64,000 bases of DNA. Source: Streptomyces sp. JB150. GTDB taxonomy: Bacteria; Actinomycetota; Actinomycetes; Streptomycetales; Streptomycetaceae. Position 1 is the first letter of the stretch. Each line of letters opens with the position of its first letter. Location: NCBI RefSeq assembly GCF_011193355.1, contig NZ_CP049780.1:2071307-2135306 (forward strand), read 5' to 3'. A program made the position numbers and the translations under genes. Shown here piece after piece: positions 16,413-55,074 of the stretch. The notes beneath the pieces are model-generated. The model did not search any database, was not told the origin of the DNA, and saw only the letters and a program-made list of their open reading frames with translations.

Positions 16413-16825
16413 GGCAGACGAGTCGGGCTGTACGCCGGGTTCTGTTCCGGCGGGTCCTCGCGGGCCCGCCGGCGACGGCCATCCATCTAGGGCCGGCGTT
16501 GCCGCCGGCCTCGTGCGGTCTACCCGCGGACTCGGGCGGGCAGCCCTCATGCGTCCGCGCAGAGCACCTTTTACAGCGCTCCTTTTGACCTTGCTCCGGG
16601 TGGGGTTTACCTAGCTGCCCAGGTCACCCTGGGCACTGGTGGTCTCTTACACCACCGTTTCACCCTTACCGAGGGCCGAGGCCCCCGGCGGTCTGTTCTC
16701 TGTGGCACTGTCCCGCGGGTCACCCCGGGTGGCCGTTAGCCACCACCCTGCCCTGTGGAGCCCGGACGTTCCTCGGGAAGCCCCCTAGGGGGACTCCACG
16801 CGGCCGTCCGCCCGGCTCGTCTGCC
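16413..16825 (-). ncRNA. rnpB: RNase P RNA, bacterial class A
   Basis: The catalytic RNA subunit of RNase P, which trims tRNA 5' leaders. Read on the minus strand, the ends pair as helix P1: GGCAGACGAGCCGGGC at the 5' end with GCCCGACTCGTCTGCC at the 3' end. Between them are conserved blocks: GAGGAACGTCCGGGCTCC, CAGGGTGGTGGCTAACGGCC, GACAGTGCCACAGAGAACAG, GGTAAGGGTGAAACGGTGG, GTAAGAGACCACCAG, and GTAAACCCCACCCGGAGCAA towards the 3' side. Length, about 413 nt, fits streptomycete class A RNAs. Exact ends are set by P1 pairing and could be off by a few bases. The 3' end of an EamA transporter gene overlaps the first 41 nt on the same strand. Confidence 0.97.
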
Positions 16826-47860: not shown

Positions 47861-48011
47861 GACTTGATCGTTCAAGAGGCTCCGAATCTACCGGCAGGTA
47901 GCGCCGCTGTGAGAAGTGGATCAGGTGATTCACGCCACGGCCCACACCGGTCCCGAACCCTGCCATGCTGTGTGGTCCCACACCCTCACGGACTGTCACG
48001 GAACGGGACCC

Positions 48012-48668
48012 ATGGAGAAGGTGGAAGCCGCCACCAGGCGCCCGGCCGCAGGCCCCGCCTCGCCCCTCACCGAGCGGCAGGAGGAGCGCCGGCGCCGCAT
48101 CCTGCGCGCGAGCGCGCGGCTGGCGAGCCGGGGCGGGTTCGACGCGGTGCAGATGCGGGAGGTCGCCGAGTCCTCCCAGGTGGCCCTGGGCACCCTCTAC
48201 CGCTACTTCCCCTCCAAGGTCCATCTGCTGGTCGCGACGATGCAGGACCAGCTGGAGCGCCTGCACGCCACCCTCCGCAAGAAGCCCCCGACGGGCGACA
48301 CTCCCGCCGAGCGCGTCGCGCAGACCCTGATGCGCGCCTTCCGCGCCCTGCAGCGCGAGCCCCATCTCGCCGACGCCATGGTCCGCGCCCTCACCTTCGC
48401 CGACCGCGGCGTCAGCCCCGAGGTCGACCAGGTCTCCCGCCAGACCACGGCGATCATCCTCGACGCCATGGGCCAGGAGGACCCGTCCCCCGCCCAGCTC
48501 TCCGCCGTCCGCGTCATCGAACACACCTGGCACTCGGCGCTCATCACCTGGCTGTCGGGGCGGGCGTCGATCGCCCAGGTGACGGTGGACATCGAGACGG
48601 TGTGCCGGTTGATCGACCTGCCGGACGACCACCCGGAACGAGACAGACCGGGACAGCCCAACGACTGA
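48012..48668 (+). CDS. TetR family regulator, KstR-like
   Basis: A 218-residue TetR repressor. The HTH domain (about residues 25-72) reads RRRRILRASARLASRGGFDA, then MREVAESSQVALGTLYRYFP and SKVHLLVATM, very close to the KstR pattern of sterol-catabolism regulators. The ligand-binding half is helical (TPAERVAQTLMRAFRALQ, VIEHTWHSALITWLSG). ATG 48012 has GGGA eight bases upstream; a longer frame reaches 47916. In mycobacteria KstR is released from DNA by a sterol-derived CoA thioester. No sterol-breakdown gene is visible nearby, so the inducer may be another acyl-CoA. A KstR-type motif lies in the shared divergent promoter. Confidence 0.9.
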   Translation: MEKVEAATRRPAAGPASPLTERQEERRRRILRASARLASRGGFDAVQMREVAESSQVALGTLYRYFPSKVHLLVATMQDQLERLHATLRKKPPTGDTPAERVAQTLMRAFRALQREPHLADAMVRALTFADRGVSPEVDQVSRQTTAIILDAMGQEDPSPAQLSAVRVIEHTWHSALITWLSGRASIAQVTVDIETVCRLIDLPDDHPERDRPGQPND

Positions 48669-48856
48669 GCGACGGGCGGCACGCGACTGACCGGACGGAC
48701 GGCGCGCGACACGGCGTCAGCGTCGGGCGGCACGGAACGGAGAGGGCGGGGCGGGGCGACTTGCCGCCCGCTGTGGGGACTTACGCCGTGCCGTGATGTC
48801 CGGTGGGGCTCCCGTCGACCGCATCGCCGAACGGGGCGGCCACAAAGGGAGAACTC

Positions 48857-49112
48857 TTGCTGTCAGATCGCGTGGACAAGGACAAGGCGATCGACGATCG
48901 AGGACCTTGAGGGAGTCACATGGCCGGCTCCCCCGTCGGACAGCACTCTTTGGTCCGCGGCGTACACGAGTTGAGGAAGCGTCCGCTCAAAAGACCTCAC
49001 GGTGGAGGACCTGCGCCGGCCCATCGGGCAGGACGTCGGCCTTCGACGGGTGAAGCCGCTGACCCTGGACCACTTGCGGGAGACGGCTCCGGACGAAGCC
49101 GTCACCGGCTGA
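48857..49112 (+). pseudogene. Frame-damaged remnant of a CdiI-like immunity protein
   Basis: Three frames must be joined to make sense. The piece IEDLEGVTWPAPPSDS is in one frame. HSLVRGVHELRKRPLK is in another, starting near 48942. DLTVEDLRRPIGQDVGLRRV continues in the first frame to the stop at 49110-49112. Together they read like the family of contact-dependent growth-inhibition immunity proteins (pattern SIEELEG...DSHLVR...L..KPL..LTVEDLR..IGQ). A one-base loss near DS and a one-base gain in the AAAA at about 48990 would restore it. A TTG with AAAGGGAGA upstream could be the old start. The C-terminus (LDHLRETAPDEAVTG) is shorter than usual. Family recalled from memory, unverified. Confidence 0.6.
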
Positions 49113-49149
49113 CGCGTGACGAACCACTCGGATCACCCCCGCTGACCGC

Positions 49150-49290
49150 CCGGTAAAGTGGCCGCGTCGTATCACACCCGTACGGGGGAAAGCCGGTGTA
49201 AATCCGGCGCCGGCCCTTCCCCGAGTTCTCGACTTCGCTCGAACAGGGGAGACCCCTGTCCGTGAGCCGAACCCGCGCAGGGGCCGGCGA
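49150..49290 (+). ncRNA. Cobalamin riboswitch
   Basis: A leader RNA about 115 bp before the alpha-barrel gene, with the conserved core GGGGGAAAGCCGGTGTAAAT-CCGGCGCCGGCCC near 49184-49215 and the B12 box CAGGGGAGACCCCTGTCC near 49244-49261, followed by GTGAGCCGA. Core stems pair (CCGG with CCGG; CAGGGG with CCCCTG). It should repress the downstream genes when cobalamin is plentiful, by hiding the ribosome-binding site or ending transcription. Ends are approximate. It is the main reason for assigning the ECF operon to cobalamin or cobinamide transport. Confidence 0.85.
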
Positions 49291-49406
49291 GCCGGATCGC
49301 CCCGTGCGGACGTGGAACGGCTCAGCACCGTCGAGGTTCACGGAGCCGAGCCGCCCGGGTCCTCCGGTGCTGCCCGGCTCCCCGCAGGAGAGGGCATCCG
49401 CCGATC

Positions 49407-50633
49407 ATGAACGTCCGCCGCACCGCCGCGGCCCTGGCCGCCGCCGCAGTGATCGGCGCCGTCGCGGCTCCGGTCGCCCACGCCGCCGACCCGTCCCCGT
49501 CCGCCTCGCCGTCCGCGGCCCTGCCCTCGGGGCTGTACGGCACGGGCGACCCGACCTACGACGGTGTGTGGCGGCAGTCGCTCGCGCTGCTCGCCCAGGA
49601 CGCGGTGGGCGTGCGGCCCGCCGGGAAGGCGGTGGACTGGCTCACCGGGCAGCAGTGCGCGAACGGCGCGTTCGCCTCCTACCGCGCGGACACCGGCAAG
49701 GCCTGTGACGCCAAGACCATGCTGGACACCAACGCGACCGCCGCCGCCGTGCAGGCGCTCGCCGCGCTCGGCGGGCACGACGCCGAGACCGGCAAGGCCG
49801 TCAGCTGGCTGAAGTCGGTGCAGAACGAGGACGGCGGCTGGGGCTTCGGCGCCGGGTCGCCGACCGACACCAACTCCACCTCCGTCGTCATCGGCGCCCT
49901 CGCCGCCGCCGGGGAGAAGCCCGCCGAGGTGACGAGGAAGGGCAACTCGCCGTACGACGCCCTCCTCGCCCTGGCCCTCCCCTGCGACGAGGACGGCGGC
50001 GGCGCCTTCGCCTACCAGCCGGACAAGAAGGGCAAGCTCGCCGCCAACGCCGACGCCACGGCCGCCGGTGTGCTGGGCGCGCTCGGCAAGGGGCTCGGTG
50101 CCGAGGCGGGCGAGCCGGGCAACGCGCCCGAGTGCGCCGACGCCGAGTCCCCCGAGCAGGCCGCCGCCAACGGCGCCGCCTACCTCGCGGACGCCGTCGC
50201 CGAGGACGGCCACCTCGTCTCCGCCCTGCCGGGCGCCGAAAACCAGCCCGACTACGGCAACACCGCCGACGCGGTCGTCGCGCTCGCCGCGCAGGGCGGT
50301 GCCGAGCGGGCCGCGAAGCCCCTGGAGTGGCTCCAGCGGAACTCCGCGGACTGGGCGAAGCAGAACGGCCCCGCCGCCTACGCCCAGCTGATCTTCGCCA
50401 CGCTGGCCACCGGCGGCGACCCCCGTGACTTCGGCGGCGACGACCTCGTCGAGCGGCTGAACGCGACCGGCCCGGCCCCGCAGGCCGCCGGCGCGGACGA
50501 GGGCGAGCGGGACGACTCGGCCGAAGAGGAGAGCGACACCAGCATGCTGTGGGTGGTCGGTGCCCTCTTCGTCGGCGGTATCGGCGTCGGTTTCCTGCTC
50601 AGCGGCAGGAAGAAGAAGGGGCCGCAGGCGTGA
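49407..50633 (+). CDS. Secreted alpha/alpha-barrel protein, transcobalamin alpha-domain-like
   Basis: A 408-residue surface protein. The Sec signal peptide ends APVAHAADPS (about 28). The mature part is a repeat barrel of the prenyltransferase fold, with QSLALLAQDAVGVRPAGKAV, WLTGQQCANGAFASYRADTG, WLKSVQNEDGGWGFGAG and ANADATAAGVLGALGKGLG. Three or more toroid units are clear. A C-terminal helix (SMLWVVGALFVGGIGVGFLL) with the tail SGRKKKGPQA anchors it. No enzyme motif is present. Vitamin B12 carriers in animals use this same barrel. Being first after the cobalamin riboswitch and ahead of an ECF transporter, it probably captures cobalamin or a precursor at the cell surface. Confidence 0.82.
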   Translation: MNVRRTAAALAAAAVIGAVAAPVAHAADPSPSASPSAALPSGLYGTGDPTYDGVWRQSLALLAQDAVGVRPAGKAVDWLTGQQCANGAFASYRADTGKACDAKTMLDTNATAAAVQALAALGGHDAETGKAVSWLKSVQNEDGGWGFGAGSPTDTNSTSVVIGALAAAGEKPAEVTRKGNSPYDALLALALPCDEDGGGAFAYQPDKKGKLAANADATAAGVLGALGKGLGAEAGEPGNAPECADAESPEQAAANGAAYLADAVAEDGHLVSALPGAENQPDYGNTADAVVALAAQGGAERAAKPLEWLQRNSADWAKQNGPAAYAQLIFATLATGGDPRDFGGDDLVERLNATGPAPQAAGADEGERDDSAEEESDTSMLWVVGALFVGGIGVGFLLSGRKKKGPQA

Positions 50634-51340
50634 TGCTCCGCCGTGCCGCCGTCCTGCTCCTGGCCGTGCTGTTCGGGTCGCTGAGCACCGGCCCGGCACA
50701 GGCCGCCGGCTACCGCTACTGGTCCTTCTGGGAGCGCGACGGCGACCGCTGGACGTACGCCACCGAGGGCCCGGCCACCGCCCGGCCGTCCGACGGCGAC
50801 GTGCAGGGCTTCCGCTTCGCCGTCAGCGCGGACTCCGGCGACGCCGCCCGGCCGCGCGGCACGGCGACGTTCGACGTCATCTGCGCCCGTACGCCCGCGC
50901 GGGACGGCCGGAAGCGGGTCGCGCTCGTCCTCGACTTCGGTACGGCGGCCCACGCCCCGTCGGGCGAGACACCGCCCGCCCGCCGGACCGTGTGCGCGAG
51001 CGTGGCGCCCGACGCGACGACCGCGGAGGCGCTGGCCGCCGTCGCCAAGCCCCTGCGCTACGACACCAACGCGCTGCTGTGCGCCATCTCCGGCTATCCG
51101 GCGAAGGGCTGCGGGGAGCAGGTGAGCGGGAGCGGTACCGGCGGGAAGGACACCTCCCCGGAAGACGCCTCCCCGCAGGACGCCTCCCCGGAGAGCGCCG
51201 CCCCGGAGGACGCCGCCGAGGGAACGGCCGGCGGGCAGGACGACGGCGGGCCCTCCCTCGGTCTCCTCGCGGGCGGCGCGGCGGTGGCGGTCCTGGGCGC
51301 GGCCGCGATCTGGCAGACCCGGCGACGCGGGAATGGGTGA
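50633..51340 (+). CDS. Secreted beta-domain protein (SCO2322-like), possible transcobalamin beta-domain
   Basis: A 235-residue surface protein. Signal peptide LLLAVLFGSLSTGPAQAAG, then about 130 residues beginning YRYWSFWERDGDRWTYATEG and ARPSDGDVQGFRFAVS. The pattern YW-x(n)-G-x(n)-PxDG-x-V/I-x-x-R/F resembles the C-terminal half of transcobalamin and DUF4430 proteins. It has three cysteines (ICARTP, TVCASV, LLCAISGYPAKGCG). A Ser/Pro/Glu/Asp linker of DASPQDASPES-type repeats leads to a C-terminal helix GLLAGGAAVAVLGAAAIW. Overlaps its neighbours by 1 and 8 bp, so all are co-translated. The transcobalamin match is my inference. Confidence 0.78.
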   Translation: MLRRAAVLLLAVLFGSLSTGPAQAAGYRYWSFWERDGDRWTYATEGPATARPSDGDVQGFRFAVSADSGDAARPRGTATFDVICARTPARDGRKRVALVLDFGTAAHAPSGETPPARRTVCASVAPDATTAEALAAVAKPLRYDTNALLCAISGYPAKGCGEQVSGSGTGGKDTSPEDASPQDASPESAAPEDAAEGTAGGQDDGGPSLGLLAGGAAVAVLGAAAIWQTRRRGNG

Positions 51341-52409
51341 CACGGTCCACCCCGGTGCCTGGTGGCTGTGGGCCCTGTCCCTCGGCATCGCCGCCACCCG
51401 CACCACCAATCCCCTCCTCCTCGCGCTCCTCATCGCGGTCTCGGCGTACGTCGTCGCGGTGCGCCGCCCGGACGCCCCGTGGGCCCGCTCCTACGGCGCC
51501 TTCCTCAAGCTGGGCCTCGCGGTGCTGCTGATCCGCCTGGTGTTCGCCGTCGTGTTCGGTTCGCCCATCCCCGGCACGCACACCCTCCTCACCCTCCCCG
51601 AAGTGCCGCTGCCCGACTGGGCGCAGGGCATCCGTCTGGGCGGCGAGGTGACCGCGGAGGTGCTGCTCCGGGCGTTGTACGACGGTCTGAAGCTGGCCGC
51701 GCTGCTGATCTGCGTGGGCGCCGCGAACGCCCTCGCGAGCCCGTCGCGGCTGCTGAAGTCGCTGCCGGGCGCGCTGTACGAAATGGGGGTCGCGGTGGTC
51801 GTGGCCCTGACCTTCGCGCCGAGTCTGGTCGCGGACGTGCGGCGGCTGCGTGCCGCCCGCCGGCTGCGCGGACGGCCGGACAAGGGGGTCCGGGGCCTGC
51901 TCCAGGTGGGCCTGCCGGTCCTGGAGGGCGCGCTGGAACGGTCGGTGGCGCTCGCCGCCGCGATGGACTCGCGCGGCTACGGCCGTACGGCCGCGGTGCC
52001 GCCCGCGGTGCGCCGTACGACGGCCGCGCTCACCCTCGGCGGGCTGCTCGGGGTCTGCGCGGGGACGTACGGGCTGCTCACCGCGGAGGGCGGCACGTAC
52101 GGACTGCCGGTGCTGCTCGCGGGGGTGGGGGCCGCGCTCGCCGGGCTGTGGCTGGGCGGCCGGCGCTCGCCGCGCACCCGGTACCGCCCGGACCCGTGGG
52201 GCGCGCGGGCCTGGCTGGTCTCCGGCTCCGGTGCCGCGGTCGCCGCCTCGCTCGTCCTGGCCGCGTCCGCCGACCCGGCGGCCCTGCATCCGGGGGTGGT
52301 CCCGCTGACCGCCCCGAGCCTTCCCGTGTGGCCGGCGGCGGCCGTCCTGCTGGGCCTGCTCCCGGCCTTCGTGACCCCGTCGCCCGAGAACTCCGAGGAG
52401 TCGACGTGA
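51333..52409 (+). CDS. ECF transporter T component (CbiQ/EcfT family)
   Basis: A 358-residue membrane protein that couples the ATPases to the substrate-binding S component. The family's two Ala-Arg-Gly-type coupling motifs are seen as RRLRAARRLRG and AAAMDSRGYGR, in the large cytoplasmic loop. About seven to eight helices surround them, with NPLLLALLIAVSAYVVAV near the start and AAVLLGLLPAFVTP at the end. ATG 51333 overlaps the previous stop by 8 bp. The GTGA overlap with the ATPase gene shows tight coupling. T components work only together with A and S genes, both present here. Confidence 0.93.
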   Translation: MGDTVHPGAWWLWALSLGIAATRTTNPLLLALLIAVSAYVVAVRRPDAPWARSYGAFLKLGLAVLLIRLVFAVVFGSPIPGTHTLLTLPEVPLPDWAQGIRLGGEVTAEVLLRALYDGLKLAALLICVGAANALASPSRLLKSLPGALYEMGVAVVVALTFAPSLVADVRRLRAARRLRGRPDKGVRGLLQVGLPVLEGALERSVALAAAMDSRGYGRTAAVPPAVRRTTAALTLGGLLGVCAGTYGLLTAEGGTYGLPVLLAGVGAALAGLWLGGRRSPRTRYRPDPWGARAWLVSGSGAAVAASLVLAASADPAALHPGVVPLTAPSLPVWPAAAVLLGLLPAFVTPSPENSEEST

Positions 52410-54163
52410 TCCGCTTCGAGGACGTCTCCGTGACGTACGACGGAGCCGCCGAACCGACCGTCCGGGGCGTGGACTTCGAGGTCCCGGAGGGCGAACTGGT
52501 GCTGCTGGTCGGGCCGTCCGGCGTCGGAAAGTCGACGATCCTGGGCGCCGTCGCGGGGCTCGTCCCGCACTTCACGGGCGGCACCCTGCGCGGCCGGGTC
52601 ACGGTCGCCGGCCGCGACACCCGCACCCACAAGCCGCGCGAGCTGGCCGACGTGGTCGGCACGGTCGGCCAGGACCCGCTGTCGCACTTCGTCACCGACA
52701 CCGTCGAGGACGAACTCGCCTACGGCATGGAGTCGCTGGGCCTGCCCCCGGCGGTGATGCGCCGCCGGGTGGAGGAGACGCTGGACCTGCTGGGTCTCGC
52801 GCCGCTGCGGGACCGCCCGATCGCCACGCTGTCCGGCGGGCAGCAGCAGCGGGTGGCCATCGGCTCGGTGCTCACCCCGCACCCGAGCGTGCTGGTCCTC
52901 GACGAGCCGACCTCGGCCCTCGACCCGGCCGCCGCCGAGGAGGTCCTCGCCGTCCTGCAGCGGCTCGTCCACGACCTGGGCACGACGGTGCTGATGGCCG
53001 AGCACCGCCTGGAGCGGGTCGTGCAGTACGCCGACCAGGTCCTGCTCCTGCCCTCCCCCGGCGCACCGCCCGTCCTCGGCACCCCCGCCGAGATCATGGC
53101 CGTGTCGCCGGTGTATCCGCCCGTGGCCGGCCTGGGCCGGCTGGCGGGCTGGTCCCCGCTGCCGCTGACGGTGCGCGACGCCCGCCGCCGGGCGACGGAC
53201 CTGCGCGCCAGCCTGCGGAACCTGGACCCCTCTCCCGCTCCCGCCGCCGGGCCGGCCACCAGTACACCCACGGCCGACGCGGCCACGACCGAGACCGCGA
53301 CCGCCCCTGGCGTCCCCGCCCCCGTCTCCCCCGCCGACGCCGAGCCCTCCTCGCCCCGGCCCCGCCGTTGGGTGCGCAGGCACCGGCCCGCCGCGCCCGC
53401 CCCCGCCTCCCCGTACGCCGCCGAGGTGCGCCACCTCGCCGTACGCCGCGGCCGGGTGCGGGCGCTGCGCCGCGTCGACCTCACCGTCTCCCCCGGCGAG
53501 ACCGTCGCGCTCATGGGCCGCAACGGCGCCGGGAAGTCCACGCTGCTGTCCTCGCTGGTGGGGCTGGTCGAGCCGGACTCCGGCTCGGTGCGCGTCGGCG
53601 GCGCCGCGCCGCACCGCACGCCGCCCCGCGACCTGGTCCGCCGGGTGGGCCTGGTCCCGCAGGAGCCGCGCGATCTGCTGTACGCCGACACGGTCGCCGC
53701 CGAGTGCGCGGCGGCCGACGAGGACGCGGGCGCCGCGCCGGGCACCTGCCGGGCCCTGGTCTCGGCGCTGCTGCCGGGGATCTCCGACGACACCCACCCG
53801 CGTGATCTGTCCGAGGGGCAGCGGCTGACGCTCGCCCTGGCGGTGGTGCTGGCCGCCCGTCCGCCGCTGCTCCTGCTGGACGAGCCGACCCGGGGTCTGG
53901 ACTACGCGGCGAAGGCGCGGCTGGTCGCGCGGCTGAGGGAGCTGGCGGCGCAGGGGCACGCGATCGTGCTGGCCACGCACGACGTGGAGCTGGCCGCCGA
54001 GCTCGCCGACCGGGTGGTGCTGCTCGCGGAGGGCGAGGTGATCGCGGACGGCCCGACGGCGGACGTGGTGGTCTCGTCGCCGTCGTTCGCGCCGCAGGTG
54101 ACGAAGATCCTCGCGCCGCAGCGGTGGCTCACGGTCGCGCAGGTGAGAAAGGCGCTGGCATGA
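52406..54163 (+). CDS. ECF transporter A component, fused tandem ATPases
   Basis: A 585-residue protein with two ABC ATPase domains in one chain, equivalent to EcfA1-EcfA2. Domain 1 (1-235): Walker A GPSGVGKST, signature LSGGQQQR, Walker B VLVLDEPTSALD. Domain 2 (about 345-575): Walker A GRNGAGKST, signature LSEGQRL, Walker B LLLLDEPTRGLD. A Pro/Ala-rich linker of about 80 residues with TATAPGVPAPVSPADAE joins them. GTG 52406 has GAGGAG just upstream and shares GTGA with the T gene; ATGA joins it to the S gene. It powers uptake of whatever the S component binds. Confidence 0.95.
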   Translation: MIRFEDVSVTYDGAAEPTVRGVDFEVPEGELVLLVGPSGVGKSTILGAVAGLVPHFTGGTLRGRVTVAGRDTRTHKPRELADVVGTVGQDPLSHFVTDTVEDELAYGMESLGLPPAVMRRRVEETLDLLGLAPLRDRPIATLSGGQQQRVAIGSVLTPHPSVLVLDEPTSALDPAAAEEVLAVLQRLVHDLGTTVLMAEHRLERVVQYADQVLLLPSPGAPPVLGTPAEIMAVSPVYPPVAGLGRLAGWSPLPLTVRDARRRATDLRASLRNLDPSPAPAAGPATSTPTADAATTETATAPGVPAPVSPADAEPSSPRPRRWVRRHRPAAPAPASPYAAEVRHLAVRRGRVRALRRVDLTVSPGETVALMGRNGAGKSTLLSSLVGLVEPDSGSVRVGGAAPHRTPPRDLVRRVGLVPQEPRDLLYADTVAAECAAADEDAGAAPGTCRALVSALLPGISDDTHPRDLSEGQRLTLALAVVLAARPPLLLLDEPTRGLDYAAKARLVARLRELAAQGHAIVLATHDVELAAELADRVVLLAEGEVIADGPTADVVVSSPSFAPQVTKILAPQRWLTVAQVRKALA

Positions 54164-55074
54164 CCCGCGAGGTCCGCCGGGTCCCCCAGGACCGGCACGT
54201 CCGACCGGTCCGGCAGGTCCGCCCGATCCGTCTGGGCCCCCGCACGGTCGCCGTACTGGTGCTGACCGGCGCGGTCGGTGCGGCGGCGCTGCTGTGGCCG
54301 TTCCTGTCCCCGCCCGCCGCGGCGGTGGCGGGGCACAGCCAGGACGCCCCGTGGCTCTTCGCGGGGCTGCTGGTGCTGCTGGTCGCCGTGGTGGGCGCGG
54401 CGATCGCGGAGTCCGGGCTGGGCGCGAAGGCGGTGGCGATGCTGGGGGTCCTGGCGGCGGCCGGGGCGGCGCTGCGGCCGATCGGCGCGGGCACGGCGGG
54501 CATCGAGCCGATGTTCTTCCTGATGGTGCTGAGCGGCCGGGTCCTCGGGCCGGGATTCGGCTTCGCCCTGGGTTCGCTGAGCATGTTCGCGTCCGCGCTG
54601 CTCACCGGGGGTGTGGGGCCGTGGATGCCGTTCCAAATGCTGGCGATGGGCTGGTTCGCGATGGGGGCGGGGCTGCTGCCGGGCCCGCACCGGCTGCGCG
54701 GCCGCGGGGAACTGCTGCTGCTGGCCGGGTACGGCTTCCTGGCCGCGTTCGCGTACGGCCTGGTGATGAACGCGCAGGGCTGGCCCTTCCTGCCGCGGGA
54801 CGGTTCGGACATCGCCCCGGATCCGGCCGCGGGCACCGCCGCGAACCTCGCCCGTTTCGCCGCCTACTGCCTGGCCACCTCGCTCGGCTGGGACCTGGGC
54901 CGCGCCCTGGTGACGGTGGTCCTCACGTTCACGCTCGGTCCGGCCGTGCTGAAGGCCCTGCGGCGGGCCACCCGGCGCGCCGCCTTCGAGACCGCGGTCA
55001 CATTCGAGGCCCCCGAAGAGGCCCCCGGGCGTGAACCGGCCCACAGGGCGCAGATCACATACGACCGGAAATAG
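54160..55074 (+). CDS. ECF transporter S (substrate-binding) component
   Basis: A 304-residue integral membrane protein, last of the operon. After about 30 basic residues (RRVPQDRHVRPVRQVRPIR) come six to seven helices, starting TVAVLVLTGAVGAAALLWPF and including FFLMVLSGRVLGPGFGFALG with MFASALLTGGVGPWMPFQML. This pattern is typical of ECF S components. The terminal 40 residues are hydrophilic. Substrate is inferred as cobalamin or a related corrinoid from the upstream riboswitch and barrel protein; the sequence does not show it directly. A hairpin about 105 bp after the stop may end the operon. Confidence 0.88.
   Translation: MTREVRRVPQDRHVRPVRQVRPIRLGPRTVAVLVLTGAVGAAALLWPFLSPPAAAVAGHSQDAPWLFAGLLVLLVAVVGAAIAESGLGAKAVAMLGVLAAAGAALRPIGAGTAGIEPMFFLMVLSGRVLGPGFGFALGSLSMFASALLTGGVGPWMPFQMLAMGWFAMGAGLLPGPHRLRGRGELLLLAGYGFLAAFAYGLVMNAQGWPFLPRDGSDIAPDPAAGTAANLARFAAYCLATSLGWDLGRALVTVVLTFTLGPAVLKALRRATRRAAFETAVTFEAPEEAPGREPAHRAQITYDRK

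Follow-up and report, generated by a model that had tools for sequence, protein, structure and literature searches.

A probable corrinoid-uptake operon of Streptomyces with two apparently permuted transcobalamin-like surface proteins and an ECF transporter

Introduction

Transcobalamin, intrinsic factor and haptocorrin, the B12 carriers of animals, combine an alpha/alpha toroid with an SLBB/DUF4430 domain, and the two sandwich one B12 molecule (PMC1796856); the DUF4430 domain stands at the end of transcobalamins (PMC4350170). In 2007, bacterial SLBB-toroid proteins were described in operons with CbiO and CbiQ genes, mostly in bacteria without B12 synthesis, and B12 scavenging was proposed for them (Burroughs et al. 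2007, PMC1796856). An ECF-type transporter, ECF-CbrT of Lactobacillus delbrueckii, has been proposed for cobalamin, with CbrT as the only substrate-binding component described (PMC5997447), and in Bacteroides the BtuG surface lipoproteins capture B12 at the surface ahead of a transporter. Statements on these publications refer to the excerpts of them that were available.

Here we describe an operon within a 64,000-nucleotide stretch of Streptomyces sp. JB150 (contig NZ_CP049780.1), hereafter the window. It fits the kind described in the available part of PMC1796856, with which it has in common a secreted SLBB domain, an alpha/alpha toroid, a CbiO-like ATPase, a CbiQ-like protein, surface proteins that are fused or paralogous, and a proposed role in B12 scavenging. 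It differs in that both domains appear permuted and reside on two proteins, in that Pfam DUF4430 misses it, and in its CobN-bearing host. With the animal carriers it shares the pairing of toroid and SLBB/DUF4430 domain, but those are single polypeptides with the toroid first, an unpermuted beta domain and no transporter partner, and no Cobalamin_bind match is found here. Its transporter is of the ECF type, as is ECF-CbrT, but no sequence match between its S component and CbrT was found in the PDB. The BtuG proteins, in contrast, belong to unrelated families and to Gram-negative outer-membrane transport.

In the open-access literature no paper was found on permutations in SCO2321 or SCO2322, the families of the two surface proteins, or on a palindrome-bearing aptamer, and the word stem 'permut' is absent from PMC1796856. 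The sole paper found that names SCO2321, available in part, employs its signal peptide as a delivery peptide. As far as these searches show, the permutations, the spread through actinomycetes, the beta-only version of the operon and the palindrome in its aptamer are new.

Results

Five overlapping genes behind a cobalamin-type aptamer

The operon consists of five genes (49407–55074) downstream of a cobalamin-type aptamer (Table 1). All five are free of internal stops, with products of 408, 235, 358, 585 and 304 aa, and they overlap at all four junctions (50633; 51333–51340; 52406–52409; 54160–54163), as the earlier note on this DNA had reported. Inspection revealed a signal peptide and a C-terminal anchor in the products of genes 1 and 2. 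A TetR-type regulator gene lies upstream of the operon (47916–48665, + strand), and a class A RNase P RNA was found at 16415–16819 (− strand, 285.5 bits). A candidate hairpin hiding the ribosome site before gene 1 (49365–49409) had a z of −1.88, with 11 of 200 shuffles equally good; four relatives (z −0.92 to 0.32) do not bear it out.

Table 1. Features of the operon and its leader in the window.
Feature	Position	Strand	Evidence
Cobalamin-type riboswitch aptamer with insert (predicted)	49176–49310	+	Model R1, 54.3 bits, E 2.1e-9
Palindrome-bearing block within the aptamer	49216–49258	+	Core recurs in five Streptomyces genomes
Likely B12-box region, GGCGAGCCGGATCGCCCCG	49286–49304	+	Paired in the alignment with the relatives' conserved 3' part
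Gene 1, SCO2321-family secreted alpha/alpha toroid with C-terminal membrane anchor; by profile, circularly permuted versus other ECF-linked toroids	49407–50633	+	NCBIfam SCO2321_fam (NF053823) 616.5 bits (cut-off 300); PF13243 30.8 bits (cut-off 26.1)
Gene 2, SCO2322-family secreted protein, predicted permuted DUF4430/transcobalamin-beta-like domain, GPS-CTERM sorting domain	50633–51340	+	NCBIfam SCO2322_fam (NF040672) 233.6 bits (cut-off 85)
Gene 3, EcfT (CbiQ-like) transmembrane component	51333–52409	+	PF02361 CbiQ 32.0 bits (cut-off 25)
Gene 4, EcfA-A', fused double ATPase	52406–54163	+	PF00005 191.5 bits, two domains; motifs
Gene 5, EcfS substrate-binding membrane component	54160–55074	+	PF12822 29.0 bits (cut-off 30.7)

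A palindrome inside the aptamer

A cobalamin riboswitch had been proposed here by the earlier note, together with an Rfam scan as a check. That scan, at gathering level, gave zero riboswitch matches in the window; the best RF00174 match (49186–49255, E 0.0087 in a 601-base search) scored 19.5 bits, under the gathering score of 31.5. Model R1, built from the aptamers of 10 relatives with the window excluded, was more telling. It recognised the aptamer with a runner-up match of 17.3 bits, and the core and B12-box region were those common to the riboswitches of orthologous operons. With filters off (48000–50500), R1 returned a shorter match, 49176–49264 (36.9 bits), which takes GGAGACCCC of the palindrome as the 3' part; the longer extent is preferred because its own 3' part agrees with the relatives. 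As a predicted aptamer the riboswitch is upheld by R1 and by the relatives' upstream matches, its RF00174 score lying below Rfam's gathering level. The positions first given for its parts (49244–49261) had to be revised: GGTGTAAAT of the core was found at 49195–49203, and GGGGAGACCCC, taken for the B12 box, is part of the palindrome block.

In the R1 alignment the window has 47 bases where the model has 6, and this extra block contains TCTCGACTTCGCTCGAACAGGGG. Searched with at most one mismatch, the block pattern had 4, 2, 3, 20 and 4 copies in five Streptomyces genomes, and a reversed control pattern had 0 copies in the same five. Copies of the short palindrome TCTCGRCTTCGCTCGA..GGGG are scattered over Streptomyces genomes, 20 of them in a single genome (G009). 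A similar block was seen at the same aptamer position in two other Streptomyces loci (L159 and L163, the L159 copy being degenerate), making 3 of the 12 Streptomyces aptamers aligned. Insertion of this dispersed palindrome is probably why the aptamer falls under the Rfam cut-off, and it is the probable account of a missed riboswitch.

The cobalamin clan was sought upstream of related operons in 60 regions of 961 bases; a hit to RF00174, RF01482 or RF01689 was counted if it lay on the operon strand and had E≤1 in a search of 19 kb. Matches were present in 52/60 regions (46 at E≤0.01, and 23 at or above the gathering score), that is in 16/20 Streptomyces regions, 19/20 other SCO2322 loci and 17/20 mixed loci; for one miss (L186) the scanned region was misplaced and lay above the gene of an unrelated ATPase. 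R1, itself drawn from 10 of these regions, added aptamers in two Streptomyces regions (L154 and L165) and found no aptamer in two others (L161 and L169), which brings the Streptomyces count to 18/20. Cobalamin-type regulation of the operon is supported by these data. In five loci (L195, L196, L197, L202 and L203) both strands carried cobalamin riboswitch matches, a pattern that would fit B12 control of two divergent transcripts. The window's genome has three further RF00174 matches above cut-off elsewhere.

Gene 2 resembles a circularly permuted DUF4430 domain

The Pfam copy used gave zero families for gene 2, PF14478 (DUF4430) included, and PF14478 was equally without match in the rest of the window's genome; a newer accession, PF28005.1, is listed for the protein in a protein database. 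Its relatives were more informative. The SCO2322 profile matched 122 reading frames of the loci examined, 92 of them over the full length and 30 not, and wherever both parts were visible in these 30 their order was swapped (in L108, profile positions 79–157 precede 15–82). Such usual-order relatives read V-V-V-D...C...TG..AL...C.I.G.P...C followed by YW.YW...W.YS..GA...P..GS.EGW.F, which is the DUF4430 order; SCO2322 departs from the strand/helix order usual for DUF4430 in the manner of a circular permutation.

Profile comparison gave the same picture. Unrotated, SCO2322 scored 94.9 over 52 columns against the 30 usual-order relatives; rotated at residue 56–68 of its 146-column domain, it scored 148.7–148.9 over 117–118 columns, the best of 30 column shuffles reaching 22.3 and the reversed control 13.6. 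In the rotated joint alignment one Cys and one Trp were each present in 54/54 and 30/30 sequences, another Cys in 53/54 and 28/30, and another Trp in 53/54 and 30/30. On this sequence evidence SCO2322 is a circularly permuted relative of the usual-order DUF4430-like proteins. Mapped on trees, which give no clear single origin for it, the permuted state requires at least four changes on the ECF tree and one on the beta tree, there with a support of only 80; these trees and the toroid tree were quick ones, with SH-aLRT alone and permuted rows trimmed to the window's columns.

Since Pfam scans with PF14478 missed the usual-order relatives as well, the link to DUF4430 had to be sought by profile comparison. 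A profile of 29 PF14478 hits was matched by the usual-order relatives (40.0) and by rotated SCO2322 (41.9, 99 columns), with shuffle maxima of 11.8 and 15.7, respectively, in 30 shuffles; profiles of the other operon proteins scored at most 21.7. Rotation adds little against DUF4430 itself (39.95 to 41.90). Rotated SCO2322 shows the similarity over most of the domain; on differently built alignments the usual-order relatives were weaker, at a probability of 50%. Searched against the PDB, a DUF4430 profile of 19 of the 29 hits picked up 3u7z, a RUMGNA_00854 protein (E 0.0008). It also matched a translation factor (E 0.005), which we put down to chance, and, third of 13 and weakly, human transcobalamin-1 (4kki, residues 368–427, E 0.03). 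Transcobalamin was not found in the PDB with the profile of SCO2322 or of its usual-order relatives, and no credible match came from searching the PDB directly by sequence (P0002, A1 and A6). The comparisons support SCO2322 as a distant DUF4430, transcobalamin-beta-like domain, the chain to transcobalamin being indirect. The resemblance to DUF4430 and the transcobalamin beta-domain proposed earlier for gene 2 is supported once circular permutation is allowed for.

Gene 1 encodes an apparently permuted toroid

The family matches of gene 1 agree with its first description as a secreted, membrane-tethered alpha/alpha barrel. Pfam Cobalamin_bind (PF01122), the animal transcobalamin alpha domain, had zero matches to SCO2321, and the PDB hits of the SCO2321 toroid profile included terpene cyclases, prenyltransferases and complement C4 but not transcobalamin. 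Squalene-hopene cyclases are indeed the best Pfam and PDB sequence matches of SCO2321, as would be expected if SCO2321 were a terpene cyclase or prenyltransferase fortuitously grouped with transporter genes. We regard this as extremely improbable, for the protein is secreted and membrane-tethered, and the toroid is linked to SCO2322 and ECF genes across families and fused to beta-like domains. Neither a DXDD nor a DDXXD motif is present, and a role as squalene/terpene cyclase was rejected.

Compared with 22 relatives whose halves are swapped, the toroid profile scored 343.6 over 189 columns unrotated; rotation at residue 216 of 351 raised this to 480.4 over 293 columns. Judged by these profiles, SCO2321 is a circular permutation of related toroids, and the toroid tree requires at least two changes of order. 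In two loci (L071 and L073) a toroid of the window's order is joined to a usual-order beta domain. A toroid protein with S-layer homology domains was seen in L077 (946–2754, − strand).

In three loci, stop-to-stop frames hold a beta-like domain and two tandem toroids (L107:9736–13419; L112:14676–17654; L113:6813–9494). In the latter two the best fit of the curated SCO2321 model spans the toroid-toroid junction (402–720 and 357–679, respectively). This arrangement is the one expected of an intermediate if the permutation arose by duplication. The L112 frame (− strand) has a sortase-like LAxTG sorting region at its end, which scores below the curated cut-offs.

The transporter genes and their possible ligand

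The ECF transporter named by the earlier note is confirmed: a T component, two A domains and an S component are encoded together, the last just below its PF12822 cut-off. The fused ATPase has two ABC domains, and the Walker A, LSxGQ and LDEP motifs each occur twice in it. Against TIGR04518 the S component scored 21.7 bits (cut-off 60), and its sequence matched none of the cobalamin S components known in the PDB.

The T component belongs to the CbiQ 'cobalt transport' family, and ECF Co/Ni importers can follow B12 riboswitches (PMC2667541, available in part), so that a transporter for cobalt or another ligand, merely B12-regulated, has to be weighed. We consider it improbable: neither Pfam nor NCBIfam identifies the S component as CbiM/NikM, the DUF4430-like and toroid partners suggest a corrinoid, and one beta-only operon (L116) lies among late B12 genes, adjoining CobN-, CobB-, CobD/CbiB- and CobT-like genes. 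CobN was found in 12/30 genomes, including the window's, where it lies 2.7 kb beyond an RF00174 match. The corrinoid reading is weakened by this, because the organism may make B12 itself.

A constant beta-like protein and an apparently optional toroid

In a sample of the class, SCO2322 was detected above cut-off in 103/296 genomes and at E≤0.001 in 125/296; the window's genome (a single contig of 7.3 Mb) has one match. Among 20 non-Streptomyces loci, nine had the order toroid-beta-T-AA-S (one of them, L093, with an extra ATPase hit upstream), six had beta-T-AA-S without a toroid, three had toroid and beta with no adjoining ECF hit (L089, L091 and L097), and two had beta alone. More distant genomes of the phylum gave five loci with the order DUF4430-T-AA-S-toroid (L212–L216, picked because both hits shared one contig); among five others, three combine DUF4430 with ECF genes, an arrangement not seen in the remaining two.

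In this distribution the beta-like protein is the constant partner, and the toroid has the look of an optional addition. SCO2322 might serve the ECF transporter alone in corrinoid import, with the toroid anchoring, storing or binding another partner. Beta-only T-AA-S operons with a riboswitch exist (for example L179, L184, L206 and L178), and a SCO2321-family match (E≤1e-5) occurred in 0 of the 13 genomes whose SCO2322-ECF locus has no adjoining toroid, one of these genomes being only 75% complete and the search blind to other toroid families. However, beta-like and toroid domains share one frame in L107, L112 and L113, and the window has the two parts each in permuted form; on balance a SCO2322-only system seems rather unlikely. 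The natural fusions and the 2007 prediction for other bacteria support the idea that the two domains cooperate. The split, two-part carrier proposed at first is supported to that extent, and the 13 toroid-less genomes speak against its being obligatory.

Discussion

The operon, its aptamer, the domain families, the permutations and the conserved linkage to ECF genes are results at the level of sequence. They make it likely, in our judgment, that this is a corrinoid-uptake operon in which two permuted transcobalamin-like surface proteins feed an ECF transporter. The riboswitch would turn the operon down when B12 is plentiful. Both surface proteins would work at the outer face of the membrane, SCO2322 with a permuted DUF4430/SLBB domain that resembles the beta half of transcobalamin, SCO2321 with a permuted toroid that resembles the alpha half. 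They may capture corrinoid there and deliver it to the S component of the transporter, which would be powered by the T and double-A subunits. The ligand, its joint binding, the hand-over to S and the direction of regulation are what we infer here; that the carrier is obligatorily two-part we hold with clearly lower confidence than corrinoid uptake.

A broader proposal, to which we give even chances, is that circular permutation affected both transcobalamin-like halves in actinomycetes, two or more times in the case of the toroid, and left the tandem-toroid fusions as surviving duplication intermediates, that the halves still form a two-part corrinoid receptor for the ECF transporter, and that the aptamer tolerates a dispersed palindrome in a conserved loop.

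A curated DUF4430 model can miss a relative because the order of its parts has changed. Corrinoid uptake by this operon would tie two widespread, unnamed Streptomyces surface families to B12 capture and connect both with the ancestry of human B12 carriers. The coexisting beta-only, two-protein and fused versions would offer a natural test of which domain, toroid or beta, holds the ligand.
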